Of a stretch of DNA of 64,000 nt, positions 34,702 through 47,690 are shown piece by piece. Below the pieces are notes generated by a model that saw only the letters and a list, made by a program, of their open reading frames with translations, did not search any database and was not told the DNA's origin. The position numbers and the translations under genes were made by a program. Origin of the DNA: Alphaproteobacteria bacterium (GTDB lineage Bacteria > Pseudomonadota > Alphaproteobacteria > UBA2966). The stretch spans positions 1 to 64,000 of the forward strand of contig JABILA010000136.1 in NCBI GenBank assembly GCA_018654745.1, in the 5' to 3' direction. Every line of letters begins with the position of its first letter. Positions within the stretch are counted from its first letter, which is position 1.

Positions 34702-35904
34702 TTAGACGCGTTCAATAACAGCAGCAATTCCTTGACCGACGCCGATGCACATGGTGGCCAAAGCACGTTTTCCACCGGTATGCTCCAGCTGATACATGGC
34801 TGTGGTCGCCAGGCGCGCACCAGACATGCCCAAAGGATGACCCAGAGCAATGGCGCCGCCCAAAGGATTGACCCGGGCATCGTCATCTTCCAGACCCCAG
34901 TCGCGGGTAACGGCCAAGCCCTGTGCGGCAAAAGCTTCGTTCAGTTCGATAATGTCCAGATCATCGAACTTCAGTCCCAGGCGCGCCAATAGCTTGTGTG
35001 ACGCCGGTGCGGGCCCAAAGCCCATAATGCGTGGCGCGACACCTGCGTGACCCATGCCCAGAACTCTGGCGCGCGGCGTCAAGCCGTGTCTTTTCGCTGC
35101 TTCTTCCGAAGCGATAATCAGGGCACAGGCACCGTCATTAACACCAGAGGCGTTTCCTGCGGTTACGGTCCCACCTTCGCGAAAAGGTGTGCCCAGCTTT
35201 GCAAGGGCTTCCAGTGAGGTCTCACGAGGATGTTCGTCGGATGAGACAATGACGTCATCACCTTTGCGTTTGGGAATAACAACCGGCACAATCTCCTGCT
35301 CCAGTCGACCGTTTTTCTGGGCCTCGGCCGCTTTGTGTTGGCTGCGGAAAGCAAAGGCATCCTGGGATTCGCGTGTGACCTGGAATTCTTCGGCGACATT
35401 CTCGGCGGTTTCCGGCATGGAATCGACGCCATATTGTTTTTTCATCAGTGGGTTAATGAAGCGCCAGCCGATGGTCGTATCAAACACTTCGGCCCGTCGC
35501 GAAAAAGCGCTGTCCGCTTTTGGCAGGATCATCGGTGCGCGGCTCATGCTTTCAGAACCACCGGCAATACAAATATCCGCTTCACCTGTTTTAATGGCGC
35601 GGGCTGCCTGACCAACGGCTTCAAGTCCGGATCCACACAAACGGTTTACAGTTACCCCGGGAACTTCAACGGGCAGTCCTGCCAATAAGGAAGCCATACG
35701 AGCGATATTGCGGTTATCTTCGCCTGCCTGGTTGGCGGCACCAAAGAATACATCGTCAATTTCTGTCCACTGCACATTCTCATTGCGACGCATCAGTTCC
35801 TTGATGGGCAAGGAAGCCAGATCGTCGGCACGCACACTGGAAAGTGCGCCACCATAGCGGCCAATAGGTGTTCGAACGGCGTCACAGATAAAAGCTTCGG
35901 TCAT
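34702..35904 (-). CDS. paaJ: 3-oxoadipyl-CoA thiolase (PaaJ/PcaF type)
   Basis: This 400-residue thiolase matches the PaaJ/PcaF subgroup: EAFICDAVRTPIGRYGGALS at the start and NRLCGSGL with nucleophile Cys90. The second half has GGAIALGHPLG and the proton-shuttling Cys386 in CIGVGQG. It cleaves 3-oxoadipyl-CoA, and in phenylacetate breakdown also the dehydrosuberyl-CoA intermediate, to succinyl-CoA and acetyl-CoA. It is divergent from paaY, which supports the phenylacetate role over protocatechuate. Confidence 0.9.
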   Translation of the reverse strand: MTEAFICDAVRTPIGRYGGALSSVRADDLASLPIKELMRRNENVQWTEIDDVFFGAANQAGEDNRNIARMASLLAGLPVEVPGVTVNRLCGSGLEAVGQAARAIKTGEADICIAGGSESMSRAPMILPKADSAFSRRAEVFDTTIGWRFINPLMKKQYGVDSMPETAENVAEEFQVTRESQDAFAFRSQHKAAEAQKNGRLEQEIVPVVIPKRKGDDVIVSSDEHPRETSLEALAKLGTPFREGGTVTAGNASGVNDGACALIIASEEAAKRHGLTPRARVLGMGHAGVAPRIMGFGPAPASHKLLARLGLKFDDLDIIELNEAFAAQGLAVTRDWGLEDDDARVNPLGGAIALGHPLGMSGARLATTAMYQLEHTGGKRALATMCIGVGQGIAAVIERV

Positions 35905-35990: not shown

Positions 35991-36067
35991 ATTAGGAATA
36001 ATACTGTCCCCCAGCCTTTGCGGCAATGTTGTCTATTCACAAGATTTTTCAAACCTACAGGCCCCCC

Positions 36068-36673
36068 ATGACAAAAGTTTATTCATTCGAAGGACTGGTT
36101 CCGGTGATCATGCCCGGCGCATTCGTCCACCCTGACGCCGTATTAATTGGCGACGTTGTCATATCCTCACGCTGCTTTATCGGCCCTTGTGCGGTGCTTA
36201 GAGGCGATTTTGGCCGTATCGAAATACATGAAGGGGCTAACGTGCAGGATAACTGTGTTGTACATTCTTTCCCCGGTCGATCCGTAATAGTCGAAGAAGA
36301 CGGACATATTGGTCACGCCGCCGTTCTGCATGCCTGCACAATAAGGCGCAACGCCCTGGTCGGGATGAATTCGACAGTTATGGACAACGCGGTCGTCGGT
36401 GAATCCGCATTTGTGGCTGCCAATTCCTTTGTCAAAGCCGGATTTGAAGTGCCAGACCATACTTTGGTTGCTGGCGTTCCTGCCAAAATCATCAAGGAAA
36501 TGGGGGCGGCCGAAATAAAATGGAAATCCATGGCGACCAAAGAGTATCAAAACCTGGCCCAACGTAGTCTCGCGACCATGAAATCAGTTGAAGCCCTGAC
36601 GGAAGAAGAACCCGATCGCCCCAAGGCCGCCGAAAAAGAGCACGTGAAGCCATTGAGTGAGCTGAAGGGCTAA
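36068..36673 (+). CDS. paaY: PaaY-type hexapeptide thioesterase / gamma-carbonic anhydrase-fold protein
   Basis: From ATG 36068 the product has 201 residues and its start TKVYSFEGLVPVI aligns with E. coli PaaY; an earlier in-frame ATG (36026) adds a non-conserved stretch. The left-handed beta-helix repeats include LRGDFGRIEIHEGANVQDN, GHIGHAAVLHACTI and NALVGMNSTVMD. PaaY is a CoA thioesterase that rescues the phenylacetate pathway from dead-end CoA products. The divergent PaaJ gene supports this. The rest of the paa genes are not in the window. Confidence 0.9.
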   Translation: MTKVYSFEGLVPVIMPGAFVHPDAVLIGDVVISSRCFIGPCAVLRGDFGRIEIHEGANVQDNCVVHSFPGRSVIVEEDGHIGHAAVLHACTIRRNALVGMNSTVMDNAVVGESAFVAANSFVKAGFEVPDHTLVAGVPAKIIKEMGAAEIKWKSMATKEYQNLAQRSLATMKSVEALTEEEPDRPKAAEKEHVKPLSELKG

Positions 36674-37263
36674 ACCAAGAATGCCATGGCGACTGACGCC
36701 AACAGCAAGATCGCAAAGCTGACATTGATGATGCGGCTGGTGCGTTCGTCCTGGAAGAAGCGTTGTAGCACGTTGCCAATGGTCATCCATGCCATGTTGA
36801 TGCCGCCGATCAAAACGAACAAAATCAAAAGTTCGAGAGCGGCCGACAAGACGACGTTGTCTGGCAGTAATTCAAATCCGGCAAAAACTGCTGTGAAGGA
36901 GGCGTAAGCCTTGGGGTTTGTCAGATTGACGATCACGCCAGAGTAAAAGCCTGGTGCACTGGACCCGGCGTCGGCAACCCGAACAGGCGGCGCGTTGGCG
37001 ATCTTCCAGGCTAGCCATATCATGTAGCAAATGGCGACGGTGATCAGGACTTCAGCGGCCATAGGAATGGTGGTGACAGCAGCAATAATCCCGGAGGCGA
37101 CCAGAGTGAGCACTATAGTGACACCGGCTTGTAAACCGAAATAATAGGGCAGGGCAGCACGTAATCCGAATGCAGCCCCTGTTGCTGCTGAGCTCAGGGT
37201 TGCAGGGCCCGGACTACCACATAGTGCGAGTGCCGCCAGCAGATATCCTGCCAGATCACCCAA
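36670..37263 (-). CDS. LysE-family exporter
   Basis: The 197-residue protein (from TTG 37263; the frame is open to 37326 but that overlaps sufU) has the LysE/RhtB pattern: CGSPGPATLSSAATGA at the N-terminus, about six membrane segments and NLTNPKAYASF in the middle. Family members export amino acids or related small molecules. It is the last gene of the coxD-to-sufU operon, starting just after the sufU stop. Its last four bases overlap the convergent paaY end. Substrate unknown. Confidence 0.85.
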   Translation of the reverse strand: MGDLAGYLLAALALCGSPGPATLSSAATGAAFGLRAALPYYFGLQAGVTIVLTLVASGIIAAVTTIPMAAEVLITVAICYMIWLAWKIANAPPVRVADAGSSAPGFYSGVIVNLTNPKAYASFTAVFAGFELLPDNVVLSAALELLILFVLIGGINMAWMTIGNVLQRFFQDERTSRIINVSFAILLLASVAMAFLV

Positions 37264-37264
37264 T

Positions 37265-37702
37265 TCAAATTTTGCTCTCTGCCTCTTCGATGGCTTTTCC
37301 CAAAGCCTCGAAGGGCAGCAAGACACATTCGTGTCGGCTTTTGAATTCGGCGACAGGTCCGAACGCAGATACGGTCGACCAGGCGTCGTCTTCGGAAGGG
37401 AGCGTGCCGCTTTTCAATAGAGCTTCCAGTTTGTCCCGCCCGCCGCTGACGGCACTTGTATCTGTGCCGATGGCGTCACGCGCGACCAGGGCTGACGCTG
37501 CTTCACATAACATGCATCCGCGAACACGATGTCCGACAGCAGTAATCTTGCCGCCAGAAACTGTGACATCCAATGTTACACGATCACCGCACAGGGGATT
37601 GTCCAATGTTACGGTGGCGTCGGGGTTTTCCAGACGTTCAGCACCGGTTTTCGATTTAGCCAGGGCAACTATTTCATCCTGGTACATATCATTGCTATTC
37701 AT
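37265..37702 (-). CDS. sufU: SufU/IscU-type sulfur-transfer scaffold protein
   Basis: This 145-residue protein has the SufU arrangement: Cys38 and Asp40 in NPLCGD, Cys63 in RGCMLC, and Cys126 in RHECVLLPFEAL. These match the zinc site through which SufU accepts persulfide from SufS. An extra Cys66 lies next to Cys63. It follows sufS by 21 bases. No sufBCD genes are nearby. Its place inside the cox accessory operon suggests sulfur delivery to the molybdenum cofactor, which is an inference. Confidence 0.92.
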   Translation of the reverse strand: MNSNDMYQDEIVALAKSKTGAERLENPDATVTLDNPLCGDRVTLDVTVSGGKITAVGHRVRGCMLCEAASALVARDAIGTDTSAVSGGRDKLEALLKSGTLPSEDDAWSTVSAFGPVAEFKSRHECVLLPFEALGKAIEEAESKI

Positions 37703-37723
37703 GTTGGTAATCCGTCGGGGGGG

Positions 37724-38953
37724 TCAGGTCAATTTTTTTATGGCTGCGGCCAGGCCTTCAAGAAGGGCGTCGACATCGGCCTGGTTGTTGTAAAAAGTTA
37801 AACTCGCCCGTGTTGTACCAGTGACATCGAAAAAGTCCATAAGCGGTTGTGCACAATGATGTCCCCCGCGCAGGGCAACGCCATATGAATCCAGTATCTG
37901 GCAAACATCATGAGGATGTATGCCATCGACGGTAAACGAAATTACCGGCAAGCGGGATTGAGTCCCCTGCGGGCCGATAATCCGGATGCGACCGTCTGCA
38001 ATTTCTGCCAATCCCGACAGGGTTCTTTCCGCCAGTTTTGCCACATGCAATATGGCTTCCGGCGTATCGGTTTCCGACAACCAACGGGTAGCAGCCGCGA
38101 GGCCTACTGCCTGGGCAATGGGAGGTGTTCCAGCCTCAAATTTGTGGGGAGGTTCCGCGAATATTGTGTCTTCCATGGTGACAGTGCGAATCATTTCGCC
38201 GCCACCCATAAAGGGCGGCAAATCATCCAGCAACTCACGCCGGGCCCAAAGCACACCAATGCCGTTCGGGGCGTACATCTTGTGACCAGAAAAGGTATAG
38301 AAATCGACACCAAGATTTTGCACATCAACGGGGCCATGAGGCACGCGTTGTGCGCCATCGATCAACACCTTGGCATCGACCGCTCTGGCTGCTTCGACGA
38401 TCCTGTGAATATCCGTATCCGCGCCGGTAACATTGGAGACATGGGTAACGGCAATCATCCGGCATTTTTCTGTGACGATGTCAGGCAGTTTGTCGAGGTC
38501 CATGCGCCCGTCGTCGGTCGCCGGGATCACCTTCAAGACGATGCCGGAGCGCTGACGCAGTAACTGCCAGGGCACGATGTTGCTATGGTGCTCCAGCATG
38601 GAAATAACGATTTCGTCACCTGGCTTCAGGCCTTGACCAAAACTGTGAGCGACCAGATTGATGGCACTTGTGGTGCCTGAGGTGAAAACAACTTCAGATG
38701 AATCCGCAGCGTTGATGAACAAGGCGACGTCCTTGCGGGCATTTTCATAGGCCTCTGTTGCAGCCTCAGCCAGATAATGTATCCCGCGCAAGACATTGGC
38801 CCGATGCGCAATTTCATGTCGTTCAACTGCATCAAGGACAGTATTGGGAATCTGCGATGTCGCCGAGTTGTCGAGATAGTGCAGGGGTTTGCCATGCACC
38901 GTCCGGTCCAGAATTGGAAACTGTCTTCTCAGCGCCTCAACGTCAAAACTCAT
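37724..38953 (-). CDS. sufS: SufS-type cysteine desulfurase
   Basis: This 409-residue class V aminotransferase-fold enzyme takes sulfur from cysteine. The PLP lysine is Lys225 in FSGHKMYAPNGIG, with upstream EHHSNIVPW and ASP in LIDGAQ. The persulfide cysteine sits in LRGGHHCAQPLM, the group II (SufS) loop. Its start overlaps the stop of the MoeA/MocA fusion by four bases, so it is firmly part of the cox accessory operon, with its partner SufU downstream. Confidence 0.95.
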   Translation of the reverse strand: MSFDVEALRRQFPILDRTVHGKPLHYLDNSATSQIPNTVLDAVERHEIAHRANVLRGIHYLAEAATEAYENARKDVALFINAADSSEVVFTSGTTSAINLVAHSFGQGLKPGDEIVISMLEHHSNIVPWQLLRQRSGIVLKVIPATDDGRMDLDKLPDIVTEKCRMIAVTHVSNVTGADTDIHRIVEAARAVDAKVLIDGAQRVPHGPVDVQNLGVDFYTFSGHKMYAPNGIGVLWARRELLDDLPPFMGGGEMIRTVTMEDTIFAEPPHKFEAGTPPIAQAVGLAAATRWLSETDTPEAILHVAKLAERTLSGLAEIADGRIRIIGPQGTQSRLPVISFTVDGIHPHDVCQILDSYGVALRGGHHCAQPLMDFFDVTGTTRASLTFYNNQADVDALLEGLAAAIKKLT

Positions 38954-40590
38954 GAATTCTCTTCCCGTTGTTCGTAAGCCCGCAGAGCCTCAGGCGTATC
39001 AAGATCAAGCAACACAGCATTGTCTTCCATCGATACTTCACAGGTATCGAATGCATGTTCACCGATCAGATGGCGCGCACCAACATCGCCGGCAATGTTT
39101 CGCATTTCACCAAACAGGGACGATGACCACAATACAGGATTGCCACGTTTCCCTTGAAATGTCGGGACACAGATTAGCCGTCCTTCTTCTTCATCGAAAG
39201 CAGCGATCAGTTTATCGATATGACGGGCTGATACAGCAGGCATATCCCCAAGACAAACTACAACACCGTCAATATCGTCGGGCAGGGCATCCAGACCGGT
39301 TTTCAGGGATGTGCTCATCCCCTCCGCAAAGTGTTCATTGTGGATAAAGCTGACGTCGCACCCGGCCAGGACTTCATGCACACCTTCCGGCTCGTGTCCC
39401 GTCACTACAACCACAAGACCGACAGCAGAGGCGATTGTTGCGTCAACAGAATGACGCACCAGGGCAACACCTTGCGACTGCGCCAGCATTTTGTTTTGCA
39501 CACCCATCCTGCGCGATTGCCCAGCGGCCAGAACCAGTGCTGCAATTCTTGGCATCCTTGGCATGGCGCTGTCTTCCCGTAACGGGCCACCATCACGCGG
39601 CTGTGGGCGCGTCGAGATTTCTTTCAGCAGACCACCTGTGCCCATATACATTAACTCTGCCTTGCTTACCCGCAAACCGGCACAGAGACGTTGCAGCACC
39701 CAGTCGAAGCCGTTGAGTTTTGGTGATCTGGCACATCCTGGCAAACCAATAACAGGAACGGGACCCTTGTTCCCCAGAAGCAACAAATTGCCAGGATCAA
39801 CGGGCATGCCAAAATGTTCGATTTCTCCTCCGGCAGCGATCAAGCCAGCCGGTATGACATCACGGCGGTCGACAATGGCCGAGGCACCAAAGACCAATAC
39901 AGAATCTACGCCCAGATCGAGCATATCAAGGATCGCAACGGATACAGCATCGGCGTTGTGGTCACACTGGATCTGGTGAACAAGTGAGCTGCCGAGGGCT
40001 TCCAGACGAGCCCTGGTTACTGCAATTGTTTTATCCAGAACCTTGTCTTTGGTATCAGAAAGACGTGTCAGGATCATGCCGACATTTTGTGGCTGAAGGG
40101 CGGCCACACGAACCAGAGCTCCGTCTCCCTCGGCGATTGCAACTCCGGCATCGACGGCGGCCTGGGGGGCAGAGAAGGGGATGATCTTGACAGTCGCCAA
40201 CATTTGACCTTCCCGGACCATGGTGTACGGCGGCAAGGTTGCAATGGTCAGGGATTCGTCCATGCGGTTGAGAATATCGACACGATCCCGGTCGATAACA
40301 ACGACGCCGTCCGTATCGGCATAAAGATTACAACGACCGGTGAACGGGGCCGTAATCCGGACGCCGTCACCGCAGGCAGCATTGGCCACCTGTTCACAGG
40401 CTGTGTCTTCATCGACATCACCAATTTCAAGCTGGACACCCGTAACTGTTTCCATATCCACTGACTTAAGAGCTGCAACGTCTTCAGCACTAAGCGTGCG
40501 TCCCTTTTTGAAGGAGACATCACCTGACCTTACCGAATGGGCAAGAATGCACCCTTCGGCTTCGTCCAATGGGATATCGCCAAAAAACAT
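38950..40590 (-). CDS. fusion of MoeA-like molybdopterin-binding domain and MocA-like cytidylyltransferase
   Basis: The 546-residue protein has an N-terminal MoeA/MogA-like molybdopterin-binding region (about 1-340, with a FGASAIVDRRDVIPAG segment). A C-terminal MobA/MocA nucleotidyltransferase follows from about 348, starting ALVLAAGQSRRMG with LGDMPAV as the metal motif. MocA joins CMP to molybdopterin to make the molybdenum cytosine dinucleotide (MCD) used by xanthine-oxidase-family enzymes such as the CoxL encoded upstream. The fusion combines cofactor capture with its activation. It starts six bases after xdhC. Confidence 0.9.
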   Translation of the reverse strand: MFFGDIPLDEAEGCILAHSVRSGDVSFKKGRTLSAEDVAALKSVDMETVTGVQLEIGDVDEDTACEQVANAACGDGVRITAPFTGRCNLYADTDGVVVIDRDRVDILNRMDESLTIATLPPYTMVREGQMLATVKIIPFSAPQAAVDAGVAIAEGDGALVRVAALQPQNVGMILTRLSDTKDKVLDKTIAVTRARLEALGSSLVHQIQCDHNADAVSVAILDMLDLGVDSVLVFGASAIVDRRDVIPAGLIAAGGEIEHFGMPVDPGNLLLLGNKGPVPVIGLPGCARSPKLNGFDWVLQRLCAGLRVSKAELMYMGTGGLLKEISTRPQPRDGGPLREDSAMPRMPRIAALVLAAGQSRRMGVQNKMLAQSQGVALVRHSVDATIASAVGLVVVVTGHEPEGVHEVLAGCDVSFIHNEHFAEGMSTSLKTGLDALPDDIDGVVVCLGDMPAVSARHIDKLIAAFDEEEGRLICVPTFQGKRGNPVLWSSSLFGEMRNIAGDVGARHLIGEHAFDTCEVSMEDNAVLLDLDTPEALRAYEQREENS

Positions 40591-40596
40591 GGCCTG

Positions 40597-41292
40597 TCAG
40601 CTTGCTTTGCGCAGGGCTTCGGTAACTTGCCCAAGGATAGACACCGCAATCTCGGCAGGGGATTTGGCACCGATATTCAAGCCAACGGGTCCGTGGATCC
40701 GGGCCATGGTCTGATCATCAAACCCTGATTCCGACAGCCGTTCCAGGCGTGAGGCATGGGTGCGATTACTGCCCAGCGAACCGATGTAAAAGGCATCCGA
40801 CTTCAAGGCCACTTCCAGGGCCGGGTCGTCAAGTTTTGGATCGTGGGTCAGGGTAACAACGGCCGTTCTGGCATCAAGGCCAAAATCAGCAAGCGCATCG
40901 TCGGGCCATTCCGAACTCAGAGACACGCCTGGAAAACGTTCAACGCTGGCAAAGGAACGTCGCGGGTCGACAACCGTCACGGCATAGCCTGCCAGATCAG
41001 CCATACGGGCAAGGGGCTGGGCAATGTGAACCGCACCGACAATAATCATGCGCAATGCCGGATTAAAGACGTTCAGAAATACCGGGCCATCATCTGTTTC
41101 GAGGGTTCTGGATTTATCAGAGCGCAATGCGGACGCTATCTGTTCCGCGAGATCGGCATCGGTTGCCTGCAAAGACGCCAGATCAGCGGCTTCGATCAGA
41201 CGTTCATCGCCGCTCAGCATATTCGTCAGAAGTACAGCTGCGCGTTTTTCCGCCCTGACTTTCAGGACAGCTTCGAGTGTTTCGCTTTTCAT
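40597..41292 (-). CDS. XdhC/CoxF-type Rossmann-domain protein
   Basis: This 231-residue protein is the C-terminal (Rossmann) half of XdhC, with IIVGAVHIAQPLARMADLAGY as the dinucleotide fold and VTLTHDPKLDDPALEVAL as a family block. XdhC binds the molybdenum cofactor, presents it for sulfuration and hands it to the apoenzyme. Its ATG follows immediately after the TAG of the small CoxI-type gene, which encodes the other XdhC half. The end GLNIGAKSPAEIAVSILGQV is also typical. Confidence 0.92.
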   Translation of the reverse strand: MKSETLEAVLKVRAEKRAAVLLTNMLSGDERLIEAADLASLQATDADLAEQIASALRSDKSRTLETDDGPVFLNVFNPALRMIIVGAVHIAQPLARMADLAGYAVTVVDPRRSFASVERFPGVSLSSEWPDDALADFGLDARTAVVTLTHDPKLDDPALEVALKSDAFYIGSLGSNRTHASRLERLSESGFDDQTMARIHGPVGLNIGAKSPAEIAVSILGQVTEALRKAS

Positions 41293-41637
41293 CTAGTCCA
41301 GCCGTTCCACATAGACCTGGACCTTGCCACCACAAGCCAGCCCCACTTCCCAGGCCTGGTCATTGCTGACACCAAAGTCGAGAACGCGGGCAGGGGCACC
41401 GGCAATTACTTCCATGGCTTCCTTGACGACCGCACCTTCGATACAGCCGCCAGAGACAGAGCCAACCATAGCACCTGCGCCATCCACGATCAGCTGGCTA
41501 CCAACCGGACGAGGGCTCGACCCCCAGGTGTGGACCACTGTTGCGATGGCAACTTCGCGCCCATCATTTTTCCAGGAGGCTGCGGTCTCAAGTACATCGT
41601 CGGGCCAGGCAGCCAGATCGGTTTGCTGTTCGCTCAT
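41293..41637 (-). CDS. XdhC N-terminal (CoxI) domain protein
   Basis: This 114-residue protein is the N-terminal XdhC/CoxI domain: VATVVHTWGSSPRPVGSQL-like TVVHTWGSSPRPVG, then GSVSGGCIEGAVV and GLACGGKVQVYVE. The conserved cysteine in GGCIEG probably contacts the cofactor. In many bacteria this domain is fused to the Rossmann half; here they are separate genes with no gap. Its start overlaps the coxE stop by four bases. Confidence 0.92.
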   Translation of the reverse strand: MSEQQTDLAAWPDDVLETAASWKNDGREVAIATVVHTWGSSPRPVGSQLIVDGAGAMVGSVSGGCIEGAVVKEAMEVIAGAPARVLDFGVSNDQAWEVGLACGGKVQVYVERLD

Positions 41638-42866
41638 GCCACGCTCCTTTGCATCGTCGAGAGGCTTTCTTCCTTGCGGGGTTGTTCTTTCCCCAAAACA
41701 TCCGCCAGATCAGCCAGTGAATTCAGATTATGGACAGTCCGGAAATCGTCTACATGGGGAAGTATAGCCTTGATCCCTCTTGATTTGGGTTCGAACCCGT
41801 CAAAACGCAACAAGGGATTGAGCCAGATCAGACGTCGACAGGATTTATGCAGCCGTTCCATCTCCGCATCAAGGTCTACACCAGCGTCCCGGTCCAGACC
41901 ATCTGATATGAATAGCACAACAGCACCCTGACCCAGAACCCGCCTGGACCAGATGGCGTTGAATTCCTTCAGGGTCACACCAATACGCGTGCCACCGGAC
42001 CAATCCTCGACCTGTTCGGTTATCTGCTCAACTGCAATATCGACGTCTCGTTGCCGTAAAAAGCGGGTGATATTTGTCAGGCGGGTGCCAAAGACAAAGG
42101 AATGTACCCTGTCGCGATCATTGGTAATGGCATGAACAAAGTGCAGCAGCATGCGGGAATAGCGGCTCATGGAGCCCGAAATATCACAAAGAATAACAAG
42201 CGGCGGGTGTCGGCGGGCGCGTTTGCGAAATTTCAGCGGGATGACTGCACCGCCTGAACGTAAACCGGCCCTTAAAGTCGCACGCATGTCGACCCTTCTG
42301 CCCCGGCTATCAGGTTTGAAGCGACGGGTCGGCACGTCCATGATCGGCAAGCGCATATTGGCAACAACTTTACGAGCTTCAGCCAGTTCCTCGACACTCA
42401 TGGTTTCAAAATCCATGCCTTGCAGAATTTCACGGGCGGAAGCCGAGCCCCGGGAATCCAGTTCTATTTCGCCCGGATTCATGTCGCGCTCGCGTTCGTC
42501 TTCATTCTCCTGGAACAATGCATCGCGAAGTCTCTGGCTGGGTGCAGGGGCATCGAACTCGCCGCCGCCAGCGCCCATGGAGGGCAACATTAGGGACATC
42601 ATCTTGTTCAGCATATCGGGATTGCGCCAAAAGATATGAAACGCCTGATCAAACATCTCACGCTGATCACGCCTGTTAACAAAGACACTGTGAAGCGCCC
42701 AGTAAAAATCGGACCTGTTGGTAATGCCGGCGATTTCGACGGCCTTGATCGCGTCTATGACCTTGCCTGGACCAATAGGCAGCCCGGCCACACGCAATGC
42801 CCGGCCAAAATACATAATATTGTCCGCCAGCTTGCCGCCAATAGGTTCGTTATCAAAATCCGTCAT
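41634..42866 (-). CDS. coxE: CoxE-type von Willebrand factor A protein
   Basis: This 410-residue protein has a C-terminal VWA domain with the metal-ion site DISGSMSRYS and later FISDGLDRD. CoxE works with the AAA+ ATPase CoxD to assemble the metal centre of the Cox hydroxylase. It begins 15 bases after coxD. The order coxD-coxE is standard. Confidence 0.93.
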   Translation of the reverse strand: MTDFDNEPIGGKLADNIMYFGRALRVAGLPIGPGKVIDAIKAVEIAGITNRSDFYWALHSVFVNRRDQREMFDQAFHIFWRNPDMLNKMMSLMLPSMGAGGGEFDAPAPSQRLRDALFQENEDERERDMNPGEIELDSRGSASAREILQGMDFETMSVEELAEARKVVANMRLPIMDVPTRRFKPDSRGRRVDMRATLRAGLRSGGAVIPLKFRKRARRHPPLVILCDISGSMSRYSRMLLHFVHAITNDRDRVHSFVFGTRLTNITRFLRQRDVDIAVEQITEQVEDWSGGTRIGVTLKEFNAIWSRRVLGQGAVVLFISDGLDRDAGVDLDAEMERLHKSCRRLIWLNPLLRFDGFEPKSRGIKAILPHVDDFRTVHNLNSLADLADVLGKEQPRKEESLSTMQRSVA

Positions 42867-42881
42867 ATCGACCCAATCGTA

Positions 42882-43796
42882 TCAACCACCCGCCTGGGCG
42901 ATTTCGAGATTGACCTGTTCGAGAATACGCGCGGCTTCCGAACCCTGGATTTTTGAAATGTCGTCCTGGTATTTCAACAAGACACCCAGGGTATCGTTGA
43001 TCGTTGCCGGGTCCAGGGCCAGTTTGTCGAGCTGGATCAGGGCGGTTGACCAGTCGATTGTTTCGGCAATGCCGGGCAGTTTGAAAAGGTCGTGCTTGCG
43101 TATCTCTTGCACAAAGGCGACGACTTGTCTGGCAAGTTTCTCACCGGCGTTGGGTACTTTCAGAGCGAGGATTTCGAGCTCACGGTCTGCATCAGGGTAA
43201 TCGACCCAGTAATAAAGACAGCGCCGTTTAAGCGCATCATGGATTTCACGGGTACGGTTTGAAGTAATAATGACCAGAGGCGGTTCAGGCGCTTTTATAG
43301 TACCGATTTCGGGGATAGTGATTTGAAAATCTGACAGCACCTCCAGAAGATACGCTTCAAAGGGCTCATCCGTGCGATCCAGTTCGTCGATCAAAAGTAC
43401 GGGTGGTCCGGCCTCGTCAGGTTGCAGGGCCTGCAACAGTGGGCGTTCAATCAGGAATTTCTCGGAAAAGACGTCCTTGCCAAGATCATCACGTTTGGTG
43501 GCACCTTCTGCTTCTGCCATGCGAATTTCGATCATTTGACCGGCGTAATTCCACTCGTAAACGGCGGAGGCCACATCGAGGCCTTCGTAACATTGCAGGC
43601 GGACAAGTTTGCGACCCAGGGTTTCGGACAGGACTTTTGCGATCTCGGTTTTACCGACACCGGCTTCCCCTTCAAGAAAAAGCGGGCGGCCCATACTCAG
43701 GCTGAGATAGAGCGTTGTCGCCAGACTACGGTCGGCAACATAATTGCCGTCGCGCAAAAGTTTCTCGGTATCATCAATAGAAGCAGGCAAGGTCAT
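42882..43796 (-). CDS. coxD: CoxD-type MoxR AAA+ ATPase
   Basis: From ATG 43796 the product has 304 residues starting MTLPASIDDTEKLL; a TTG at 43838 would add 14 residues but reaches the terminator. It has Walker A GEAGVGKTE, Walker B LLIDELDRTDE and the sensor TSNRTREIHDAL. In Oligotropha CoxD is a chaperone needed for sulfuration and copper insertion at the molybdenum site. It heads the eight-gene accessory operon. Neither start has a clear Shine-Dalgarno. Confidence 0.93.
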   Translation of the reverse strand: MTLPASIDDTEKLLRDGNYVADRSLATTLYLSLSMGRPLFLEGEAGVGKTEIAKVLSETLGRKLVRLQCYEGLDVASAVYEWNYAGQMIEIRMAEAEGATKRDDLGKDVFSEKFLIERPLLQALQPDEAGPPVLLIDELDRTDEPFEAYLLEVLSDFQITIPEIGTIKAPEPPLVIITSNRTREIHDALKRRCLYYWVDYPDADRELEILALKVPNAGEKLARQVVAFVQEIRKHDLFKLPGIAETIDWSTALIQLDKLALDPATINDTLGVLLKYQDDISKIQGSEAARILEQVNLEIAQAGG

Positions 43797-43883: not shown

Positions 43884-44678
43884 TTATCCGCAGGCTTCAA
43901 CAGCGCGTTTGGCCATAACCTTGACCAGATTGGCGCGGTATTCAGCACCGGCGTGGATGTCCACATTCATGTGGTCTACCGGAATTTCAACACCGTCAAC
44001 AGCACTGGCTGAGAAGTTCTCATTCAGGGCTGCTTCCAGTCGTGGTCCACGATGGGCATGGGATGTAGCGCCAGTTACGGCAACCCTTACACCATCAGCA
44101 GTTTTGGCCACATACACCCCGACCAGCGCAAAGCGCGAAGCGGGTTGCTTGAACTTCATGTAAGCACCTGAGGTCGGTGCCGGGAATGAAACCGAGGTAA
44201 TAATCTCGTCTTCTTCCAATGCCGTCTCGAACAGGCCCTTGATGAAGTCATCTGCAGCGATTTCACGCTTATTGGTGGTAACCGTCGCACCCAGAGCCAA
44301 AATGGCAGCTGGATAGTCTGCTGCCGGGTCATTGTTGGCGAGCGAGCCACCAATTGTTCCTGCATTACGGACCTGGCGATCGCCAATATCCCCAGCCAGT
44401 GCTGCAAGGGACGGGATGGCCCCCTGAACATCGGCTGAAGCCGCGACTTCTGCGTGAGTTGTTGTGGCACCAATAGTGACAGTGCCACCACTGACTGAAA
44501 TGCCTTTGAGATCGGCAATGCCACCAAGGTCAACGAGGTCTGACGGTGCTGCCAGCCGTTGTTTCATGGTTGCAAGCAAGGTCTGGCCGCCAGCCAGATA
44601 TTTGCCATCGTCTGCCCCGCCGAGTGCAGAGGTCGCATCGGCAACGCTGCCAGGACGGTGATAATCAAAACCGTACAT
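43884..44678 (-). CDS. coxM: CO dehydrogenase-like hydroxylase, FAD-binding medium subunit
   Basis: This 264-residue subunit has the FAD contacts AGGQTLLATMK-like GGQTLLATMKQRLA and TIGGSLANNDPAADYP (the second FAD loop). It passes electrons from the iron-sulfur subunit to the quinone or another acceptor. AAGGAGGA precedes the ATG. It is the last gene of coxS-coxL-coxM and is followed by a strong terminator. Confidence 0.93.
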   Translation of the reverse strand: MYGFDYHRPGSVADATSALGGADDGKYLAGGQTLLATMKQRLAAPSDLVDLGGIADLKGISVSGGTVTIGATTTHAEVAASADVQGAIPSLAALAGDIGDRQVRNAGTIGGSLANNDPAADYPAAILALGATVTTNKREIAADDFIKGLFETALEEDEIITSVSFPAPTSGAYMKFKQPASRFALVGVYVAKTADGVRVAVTGATSHAHRGPRLEAALNENFSASAVDGVEIPVDHMNVDIHAGAEYRANLVKVMAKRAVEACG

Positions 44679-44691
44679 ATTGAGGTCCTCC

Positions 44692-47043
44692 TTATTCAGC
44701 AGCCTGGCAAGCGAGCCAGACTTTTTCTTGAGTTGCAGGCATATCGATCATGGCACCGCCACAGGCATCTGTGATCGCGTTGATCACCGCAGGTGGTGAG
44801 GCAATGGCTCCGGCTTCACCGGCACCCTTGACCCCGAGAGGGTTCAAGGGGGACGGTGTCGATGTGGTGCCGACGTTAAAGTTCGGCAGGTTGTCGGCCC
44901 GTGGCATGGTGTAATCCATGTAGGAACCGGTCACCAGCTGACCATTGTCGTCATAGTTCGCACCTTCGAGCATGGCCTGACCAACGCCCTGGCCAATACC
45001 GCCGTGAACCTGACCTTCCACAATCATCGGATTAATGATGGTGCCAAAGTCATCGACAGCTGTGTAGTTGACGATTTCAGTTTCACCGGTTGTTGGATCC
45101 ACCTCGACTTCACAGATGTGCACACCGGCCGGAAACGAGAAGTTCAGCGGATCGTAGAAGGCTTGCTCATGCAAACCAGGCTCTACGCCCTCCGGATAGT
45201 TGTGCGGCACATAGGCCGTAAAGGCAATTTCAGCGATATTCATCACCTTGTCGGTTCCAGCCACAGTGAAGTTACCACCATCATATTCGATGTCATCTTC
45301 TGCAGCTTCGAGACAATGGGCGGCAATCTTTTTGCCCTTCTCGATGATCTTGTCTGCGGCTTTGACGATAGCAGAACCACCAACGGCGATTGAACGTGAG
45401 CCATAAGTGCCCATGCCAAACGGTCCCTTGTCGGTATCACCTTCGACAACTTCAATGTTCTCGATCGGCACACCAAGTTTGTCAGAAACCACTTGGGCAA
45501 AGGCCGTCTCGTGACCCTGGCCGTGGTTGTGGGTTCCTGTCATCACCGTGACGCTGCCGGTTGCGTTAAAGCGGATATCCGCTGATTCCCACAGGCCAAC
45601 ACCACCACCAAGCGCACCCACCGCCGCTGACGGTGCGATACCACAAGCTTCGATGTAGGACGAATAGCCAAGACCGCGACGCTTGCCGCGACTTTCACTA
45701 TCGCTACGACGGGCAGCAAAACCACCGACATCGGCCATTTCACAGGCTTTCTCGAGGCTCGCACCGTAGTCACCAATGTCGTACTGGTGCACAACAGGGG
45801 TTTGATACGGGAAGGCGTCAGGCTGAATAAAGTTCCGGCGACGAATTTCCGCCGGATCAATGTTCATCTCACGCGCTGCCGTTTCAACCGTACGTTCCAG
45901 AAGATAAGTTGCTTCCGGACGTCCAGCCCCTCGATAGGCATCTACAGGTGCTGTGTTGGTGAATACGCCTTGTACGTCACAATAAATAGCTGGTGTTGTA
46001 TAAGTACCAGCCAGCAATGTTGCGTACATATAAGTCGGCACTGCCGAGGCGAAAGTGGACAGGTACGCACCAAGATTGGCCTTGGTGTTGACCCGAAGTG
46101 CCAGGAACTTGCCATCTGCATCCAGAGCCAGTTCAGCCTTTGAGACGTGATCACGTCCGTGGGCATCTGACAGGAAGCTCTCCGAACGTTTTGCTGTCCA
46201 TTTGATCGGACGACCTACCTTGCGGGTGGCCCATGTGCAAACGACTTCTTCAGCGTAGATAAAGATCTTTGAGCCAAAGCCGCCGCCAACATCCGGTGCG
46301 ATGACCCGAAGCTTGTGCTCAGGTGCGACACCGTTAAAGGCTGACATCACCAGACGATGTACATGCGGGTTTTGCGACGTGACATGAAGTGTCCAGTCGC
46401 CTGTGCCCTGATTGTACTGTGCGAGGCAGGCCCTTGGCTCCATGGCGTTCGGGATCAGGCGGTTATTAACGACCTCAACCGTTGTGACATGGGCCGCACT
46501 GGCAAAAGCTGCATCAGTTGCAGCAGAATCACCAATTTCCCAATCATAACACATGTTTGCCGGAGCTTCTTCATGTATTGTTGTAGTATGATTCAAGGCG
46601 CTTCCGGTGCCAACAACAGCAGGCAACTCTTCGTAATCGACTTCAACCATTTCAGCAGCTGAGTCTGCCTGACCTTGTGTTTCGGCAACAACCAGGGCGA
46701 CGTGGTCACCTACATAGTTGACCTTGCCCATGGCGAGGGCATGGTGAACAGGCGAGTTATGTGCCTCAACACCGTTTTTGCCGGCAATGTTCCAGCCGCA
46801 AATCAGGGGACCAACACCATCTGCTGCCAGTTCTTCGCCCGTCAGCACCGCAACGACACCGTCTGCAGCCGCAGCAGCAGAAGTGTTAATGCCGTTGATT
46901 TTGGCGTGAGCATGAGGTGAACGAACAAAGGCCGCGTATGTTTGGCCAAAGACGTTGATGTCGTCCGTGTAATTTCCGTTTCCGGTCAGGAAACGTTGGT
47001 CTTCCTTGCGCCGTACGGCAGCGCCAATTCCTGTTTCACTCAT
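44692..47043 (-). CDS. coxL: form II CO dehydrogenase-like molybdenum hydroxylase, large subunit
   Basis: From ATG 47043 (783 residues; the earlier 47115 start overlaps coxS) this is the MCD-binding catalytic subunit. It has GGGFGSK (253-259), the active-site loop AYRGAGR (369-375) and the [11 protein letters not shown] segment with the catalytic Glu. AYRGAGR marks form II; true aerobic CO dehydrogenases (form I) have AYxCSFR with a copper-binding Cys, absent here. So CO oxidation is not supported; an aldehyde, purine or other hydroxylation is more likely. Confidence 0.93.
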
Positions 47044-47045
47044 AA

Positions 47046-47513
47046 TCAGCCTCCCATCCGTTCTGCGCCATCCTTGATCGATTTGACGATATTGTGGTAG
47101 CCGGTACAGCGACAAATGTTACCGTCAAGCTGTTCACGGATCGTCGCCTCGTCCAGATTTTTCATGTTATTGGCCAGATCAACGGCGCTCATGACCATGC
47201 CCGGCGTACAGAAACCGCACTGTAGACCATGGTTTTCCTTGAAAGCTGCCTGCATCGGATGCAGTTCCTCACCATTTGCAAGGCCTTCAATGGTAGCCAC
47301 ATCTGCGCCTTCGGCCTGGACTGCCAGGGTCGAGCAGGATTTGACGGATTTGCCATTAACGTGCACCACACAGGCGCCACACTGGCTGGTATCACAGCCA
47401 ACATGCGTGCCGGTCAGTCCGATATGATCGCGGATATAGTGAACCAGCAAGGTCCGTGCTTCAACGTCTGCTGAAACAGCCTTGCCGTTCACCGTCATGG
47501 AAACGGTGGGCAT
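47046..47513 (-). CDS. coxS: CO dehydrogenase-like hydroxylase, [2Fe-2S] small subunit
   Basis: From ATG 47513, preceded by GGGGAGA, the product has 155 residues; the open frame to 47648 is not conserved. The plant-type [2Fe-2S] site uses Cys40, Cys45, Cys48 and Cys60. The second uses Cys99, Cys102, Cys134 and Cys136 (CGFC and CRC). It carries electrons from the molybdenum site to FAD. Order coxS-coxL-coxM is that of form II operons (form I is M-S-L). Confidence 0.95.
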
Positions 47514-47690
47514 TGAATTTCTCCCCATTCTGCCAAGGCTTTTCCGGATTGGAACGATCCCCACCCGGCGCAGTTCTTTTGACTGCCTGCCTATCGTTAT
47601 ACAAACAGTTTCACGGGCATTACCTGTCCCGTCAAGACGGAAACGCATAAGAGAACGAATTGTTGATCGGCTATCGGTTCAAGGAAACAA

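Follow-up and report, generated by a model that had tools for sequence, protein, structure and literature searches.

Sulfur genes in a molybdenum hydroxylase operon

The operon studied here lies in a 64,000-nucleotide stretch of an alphaproteobacterial genome of lineage UBA2966 (GenBank assembly GCA_018654745.1, contig JABILA010000136.1, positions 1 to 64,000; the whole stretch is called the window) and places genes for a cysteine desulfurase, SufS, and a SufU-like protein among the maturation genes of a molybdenum hydroxylase. We propose that SufS and SufU are dedicated to relaying sulfur to the molybdenum cofactor of the hydroxylase encoded in the same operon, an enzyme of form II (CoxSLM); to this reading, drawn from comparative sequence analysis, we give a probability of about three in four. 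A role in molybdenum sulfuration is well supported by the comparative evidence, while we infer in which direction and order the sulfur is passed on, and that its acceptor is XdhC and not CoxD. An earlier note, made from the letters of the window, had suggested that the pair serves molybdenum and not primarily iron-sulfur (Fe-S) clusters, and this preference is now supported because the SufS proteins form a separate clade, because SufS and SufU co-occur in genomes without the SUF system of Fe-S assembly, and because SufU is in places fused to the molybdenum cofactor cytidylyltransferase MocA.

The operon runs on the minus strand throughout, in the order coxS-coxL-coxM-coxD-coxE-CoxI domain-XdhC Rossmann-MoeA-like/MocA-sufS-sufU-lysE, with domains of its open reading frames (ORFs) called by Pfam and NCBIfam profiles. 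The gene for the putative sulfur carrier, sufU (37265..37702), follows sufS (37724..38953), a type II desulfurase of a cox-linked clade, and this follows a gene (38950..40590) whose product had been described as a MoeA-like/MocA fusion; the MocA domain stands (TIGR03310, residues 351-535), and the MoeA-like half is weakly recognised (MoCF_biosynth, E-value 0.021; MoeA 1uz5, E-value 0.2). Next upstream, two adjacent genes encode a Rossmann protein (40597..41292; Pfam XdhC_C) and a CoxI-domain protein (41293..41637; Pfam XdhC_CoxI), and because these match residues 110-340 and 2-100 of NF045664, the two halves of one XdhC-type factor, we regard XdhC as split in this operon, with both halves present. 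Then come coxE (41634..42866; Pfam VWA_CoxE), encoding the VWA-domain partner of CoxD, and coxD (42882..43796; Pfam AAA_5, NCBIfam MadB-like), encoding an AAA+ ATPase of molybdenum hydroxylase maturation. Re-measured gaps bear out the order and spacing first reported from coxD to sufU: 15 bases for coxD-coxE, a four-base overlap of coxE with the CoxI-domain gene, none between the XdhC halves, six from XdhC_C to MoeA/MocA, a four-base overlap of the latter with sufS, and 21 for sufS-sufU. Dozens of genera share the arrangement, which is thus more than chance.

Linkage of sufU to cofactor genes

For a survey of the class, 385 genomes were searched with SufU and, separately, with the MocA domain, the matches were compared by position, and 60 of the neighbourhoods were inspected. 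SufU matches of at least 100 bits lay within 4 kb of a MocA match in 50 of 61 cases. A profile of the SufU subfamily gave 80 named loci; being the top-scoring ones for a query built from cox loci, they are biased, and the class survey gives the fairer number. Nearly all lie directly after MoeA/MocA, with XdhC, CoxI, CoxE and CoxD upstream. These loci come from Alphaproteobacteria (Reyranella, Inquilinus, Nisaea, Dongia, Kiloniella, Sneathiella, Telmatospirillum, Geminicoccaceae), Betaproteobacteria (Rhodocyclales, Sulfuritalea) and Gammaproteobacteria (Thiothrix, Thiotrichales, Immundisolibacterales). The earlier note had suggested comparing neighbourhoods and had allowed that the arrangement might be unique to one strain; instead the pairing near MocA, XdhC and CoxD recurs across all three classes.

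Among loci of both sets with enough flanking sequence, SufU was linked to MocA in 97 of 103, to XdhC_C in 83 of 95, to SufS in 70 of 105, to CoxE in 66 of 95, to CoxD in 61 of 91 and to CoxL in 22 of 54. Since linkage to MocA and XdhC exceeds linkage to CoxL, SufU tracks the cofactor genes more than the genes of the Fe-S-bearing enzyme, and the subfamily nearly always sits after MocA/XdhC genes, whether sufS is present or not.

The closest form of linkage is fusion. A Rhodospirillales metagenome-assembled genome has one 357-residue open frame (L120, 1244-2314, plus strand) joining MocA and SufU, and the point at which SufU formerly started has no Met; the frame opens at the end of a full-length xdhC gene, and this XdhC is the product of one 334-aa gene with the CoxI and XdhC_C domains unsplit. 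A second such fusion, at 51% identity and with no stop, was found in another genome (G449, L230:1501-2529, plus strand). In both, the MocA and SufU domains are each recognised by Pfam and by NCBIfam, and a single assembly error is no explanation for the two cases.

SufS and SufU in genomes without SUF

The host genome (5.07 Mb, 94.7% complete) gave no SUFBD_core match for SufB or SufD in a search that was positive in 14 of 14 control genomes, and a different contig carries an ISC operon that is complete, with cysE, iscR, a second desulfurase of the NifS/IscS type, iscS, iscU, iscA, hscB and hscA. With PF00266 we found one SufS-grade protein, the operon copy, and two ISC-type desulfurases scoring below it; the SufS search of the class survey likewise lists a single copy for this genome. 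With no SufB or SufD and a complete ISC system elsewhere, the SufS and SufU of the operon thus lack a SUF scaffold. A second sufBCDS set, for which a search of the full genome had been proposed, is therefore not what this search found, and the worry that no other cysteine desulfurase might be present is answered by the two ISC-type enzymes.

Across the survey, SUF was absent in 127 of the 385 genomes, and SufS was found in 40 of these and not in the other 87. By combination, 38 had SufS and a SufU-like protein (one of them, G182, counted with a degenerate type described below only), two had SufS only, three a SufU-like protein only, and 84 neither (Fisher P = 2e-26, a value that ignores relatedness). 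Where SUF is missing, then, genomes retain SufS almost exclusively in the company of SufU. By coordinates, about 34 of the 40 SufS genes adjoin this SufU or MocA, and the 38 genomes span 19 family groups; SufS and SufU are often one unit, so the co-occurrence is not independent evidence twice over. The exception, G182, has a SufS gene directly adjoining MocA (C1:1558887-1560694), and no SufU of this subfamily was found in its genome. Approached from the other side, SufB/D is absent in 46 of 80 genomes with a cox-linked SufU.

A separate SufS lineage

The operon SufS scores 537 bits on TIGR01979 (cut-off 475) and has its catalytic Cys in GHHCAQP. In the SufS tree the cox-linked proteins form one clade (Shimodaira-Hasegawa-like approximate likelihood ratio test support of 100), apart from 25 SufS of SUF operons; it holds 50 cox-linked sequences, two more from cox loci, a contig-edge copy (L194) and an orphan (L213), and three non-cox SufS-SufU pairs also fall inside it. 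At ten positions the cox-linked and SUF-operon SufS differ by residues that are fixed or almost so, for example R51, D181 and D296. An HPHD/HAHD motif, presumably that of His342 in Bacillus subtilis SufS, was rejected as a marker of SufU-dependent SufS, being non-discriminating and found in all 25 SUF-operon proteins too.

A cox operon with SufU but without SufS was found in 30 genomes, all 30 with SufS elsewhere: 26 are SUF-bearing and have it beside sufBD genes, and four are SUF-less (three of the Dongia group and one Telmatospirillum). None of the 30 thus leaves its SufU without a type II desulfurase, which agrees with the report that SufS requires a specific partner protein (PMC8300815).

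The SufU protein

The operon SufU matches NifU_N (Pfam) and scores 72.7 bits on the NCBIfam SufU family TIGR01994, under its equivalog cut-off of 92.5; by family score, then, it belongs to a divergent, SufU-like subfamily. In 36 cox-type sequences aligned with B. subtilis SufU, C38, G39, D40, C63, R123 and C126 are invariant, and we take C38, D40, C63 and C126 to be the metal and persulfide residues of established SufU proteins. The residue preceding the last Cys is variable, with no IscU-type His there. An extra Cys three residues after C63 occurs in 32 of the 36 sequences, with Thr in the other four; alignments do not show it in B. subtilis SufU, in the IscU of the same genome or in proteins of the type of Protein Data Bank (PDB) entry 5uft. 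The CxxC so formed (C63/C66) appears special to this subfamily, and its sulfur-carrying role is only putative. An AlphaFold2 model of SufU (mean predicted local distance difference test score 95.6) matches crystal structures of B. subtilis and Mycobacterium tuberculosis SufU, the persulfurated 6jzw included, with TM scores of about 0.79-0.88.

A second SufU-like type is widespread in alphaproteobacteria, with CGS for CGD, Ser, Ala or Asn at the position of the last Cys, and the metal site lost. Brucella 5uft is of this type, as is a protein whose gene adjoins folE and hisI (L058:9872-10330, minus strand), and others were seen at L047, L050, L056, L059, L104 and further loci; in G182 the only SufU-like protein is of this CGS type, encoded elsewhere in the genome (L048). 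We ruled these proteins out as SUF-linked SufU, since they are a separate type with the active residues lost.

The enzyme is of form II

The enzyme subunits are encoded by coxS (47046..47648; CoxS-type 2Fe-2S motifs in the ORF, its start uncertain, with a 70-base overlap with coxL as called), coxL (44692..47115; Pfam MoCoBD_1/2 and Ald_Xan_dh_C) and coxM (43884..44678; Pfam FAD_binding_5), for the [2Fe-2S], molybdenum and FAD subunits respectively. The earlier note began the operon at coxD, and the same operon in fact already begins upstream with these three genes. CoxL has the active-site motif AYRGAGR, the form I motif AYRCSFR is absent, and the order is coxSLM against the coxMSL of form I CO dehydrogenase; on motif and order CoxL is thus of form II. 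Its identification as a molybdenum hydroxylase subunit holds, and the label CO dehydrogenase would need an assay behind it: the operon enzyme is a molybdenum hydroxylase of form II and is not proven to be a CO dehydrogenase. The function of form II hydroxylases is still debated.

Proposed mechanism and alternatives

Enzymes of the xanthine oxidase family depend on an essential terminal sulfur on molybdenum. In the relay as we envisage it, SufS would draw sulfur from L-cysteine in the form of a persulfide, and SufU would receive it from SufS and bring it to the molybdopterin cytosine dinucleotide (MCD) cofactor, which the MocA domain produces and the two halves of XdhC (CoxI plus Rossmann) hold. 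MCD on XdhC would so gain its terminal Mo=S ligand, after which CoxD and CoxE would aid installation or activation of the cofactor in CoxL. A broader claim, towards which we lean with less confidence, is that this is a distinct proteobacterial molybdenum branch, in which SufS and CxxC-SufU lineages apart from Fe-S assembly would be dedicated to MCD sulfuration and, where fused to MocA, may couple cytidylylation to sulfuration.

The acceptor may be a different one. SufU or SufS might hand sulfur directly to the enzyme-bound molybdenum with CoxD and CoxE, and not to an XdhC-bound cofactor, as in the in situ sulfuration proposed for the CO dehydrogenase of Oligotropha carboxidovorans, where CoxD is needed for sulfurating the already inserted cofactor and the sulfur source for this step was stated as unknown (PMC4240915). 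CoxD and CoxE are also present in most of these operons. We nonetheless consider this route doubtful, although a real contender, and favour that through XdhC, because SufU is linked less to CoxE and CoxD (66/95 and 61/91 loci) than to MocA (97/103), and because the fusion partner of SufU is MocA, next to XdhC.

Delivery to the enzyme's other metal centres is unlikely. CoxS requires two [2Fe-2S] clusters, which SufS and SufU might build or deliver with SufU as the scaffold; B. subtilis SufU was once termed a scaffold, going by a reference given in PMC8300815, and a [2Fe-2S] structure of SufU is known (9dcl). Against such a role stand the lack of SufBD and the full ISC system in the host genome, the tracking of MocA/XdhC rather than coxS/L, the MocA-SufU fusions, and the missing conserved His before the last Cys of cox-SufU, where the host IscU has HC. 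Less probable still is that the pair supplies the dithiolene sulfur of molybdopterin (the MoaD/MoeB step) or general cellular sulfur trafficking, for while cysteine desulfurases do feed MoaD in Escherichia coli (PMC8300815), the linkage here is to late steps (MocA, XdhC), and 84 of the 127 SUF-less genomes have neither gene. That SufS acts on selenocysteine as a lyase, the pair supplying selenium to a selenium-dependent molybdenum hydroxylase, is most improbable: SufS-type enzymes can also cleave selenocysteine (PDB molecule names) and a lyase-like gene lies near such hydroxylases (PMC2276186), but the operon ORFs include none recognised as selD-, yqeB- or yqeC-like, selD not having been searched for genome-wide.

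Several observations weigh against a relay dedicated to molybdenum. The fold is not confined to carrying sulfur, as the SufU of M. tuberculosis is able to bind a [2Fe-2S] cluster (PDB 9dcl). Nor is the relay universal: among the 150 MocA loci listed in the class survey, 56 have SufU within 4 kb and about 94 do not, and other sulfuration routes must therefore exist. One relative of the cox-type SufU is found in a true SUF operon, iscR-sufB-sufC-sufD-sufS-sufU (L061, 4492-10234, plus strand), and SufS-SufU pairs without cox genes occur at L046, L049 and L102. Lastly, among the 80 cox-SufU genomes an own cox sufS is absent in four and present in 42 of the SUF-less, and absent in 26 and present in eight of the SUF-bearing ones (Fisher P = 5e-10); this association of cox sufS with SUF absence comes down to 7 and 9 independent changes and to 3-7 independent pairs, is non-significant on that count, and is not used as evidence here.

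Two of these loci have features of their own. SUF operons of the L061 type, with SufU last, are rare in alphaproteobacteria, and in the same family group another genome (G035) is SUF-less and has a cox-linked SufU instead. The cox-type SufS-SufU pair at L049 (8579-14971, minus strand) lies near genes apparently for sulfite reductase and other steps of sulfate assimilation.

Relation to known systems

In the established scheme XdhC serves as the platform on which a cysteine desulfurase sulfurates the bound molybdenum cofactor (Moco), and also as the factor that inserts it (PMC2997495, PMC10609526); for CO dehydrogenase, CoxD is needed for sulfuration, and in 2014 the source of the sulfur was said not to be known (PMC4240915). 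The SufS-SufU relay would be a new variation on known Moco sulfuration and may speak to that source. By analogy it resembles the XdhC-NifS4 system of Rhodobacter capsulatus xanthine dehydrogenase, where a cysteine desulfurase serves Moco on an XdhC-type chaperone (PMC2997495, PMC10609526). There, however, the desulfurase acts directly on the XdhC-bound Moco, with no SufU-type carrier described, and nifS4 resisted disruption and is apparently essential, whereas here the operon holds a dedicated SufS and a SufU carrier. A carrier that brings sulfur from a desulfurase to Moco ahead of its insertion has a possible analogue in the IscS-FdhD system of E. coli formate dehydrogenase (PMC10609526), but FdhD is of another family and itself binds bis-pyranopterin guanine dinucleotide, while SufU is small and would hand the sulfur to a separate cofactor holder.

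With the SUF systems of B. subtilis and M. tuberculosis the operon shares the two protein families and the SufU metal and persulfide residues; it differs in having no SufBCD, a SufU under the family cut-off with a CxxC, and a SufS clade of its own. The coxBCMSLDEFGHIK cluster of O. carboxidovorans (form I CO dehydrogenase) likewise has CoxD AAA+ ATPase, CoxE VWA and CoxI-type maturation genes, unlike which the present operon is of form II with coxSLM order, a MocA fusion and sufSU. In open-access full text we found no paper on SufU with XdhC, SufU with molybdenum hydroxylase, or NifU-like proteins with CoxE and CO dehydrogenase; open-access papers that contain SufU and carbon monoxide dehydrogenase, or NifU and coxL, do not address the pairing as far as their titles and abstracts go. 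If the relay is real, a protein familiar from the assembly of Fe-S clusters doubles as a molybdenum sulfurtransferase, sufS and sufU in a genome annotation are no safe evidence for a SUF pathway, and the gene set would be of use for producing active form II hydroxylases.

Genes bordering the operon

The gene after sufU encodes a LysE-family exporter (Pfam LysE; 36670..37263, minus strand, from a TTG start, or from an alternative GTG at 37326). From the GTG it would overlap sufU by 62 bases, and the in-frame TTG at 37263 lies directly past the sufU stop. Although counted as an operon member in the earlier note, it is not in the conserved unit, and we ruled it out as a component of the system, its linkage being restricted to the same genus as that of a genus-level passenger. 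Convergent with lysE and overlapping it by four bases is a gamma-carbonic-anhydrase/PaaY-like hexapeptide gene (36026-36673, plus strand), beyond which lies a thiolase gene (34702-35904, minus strand).

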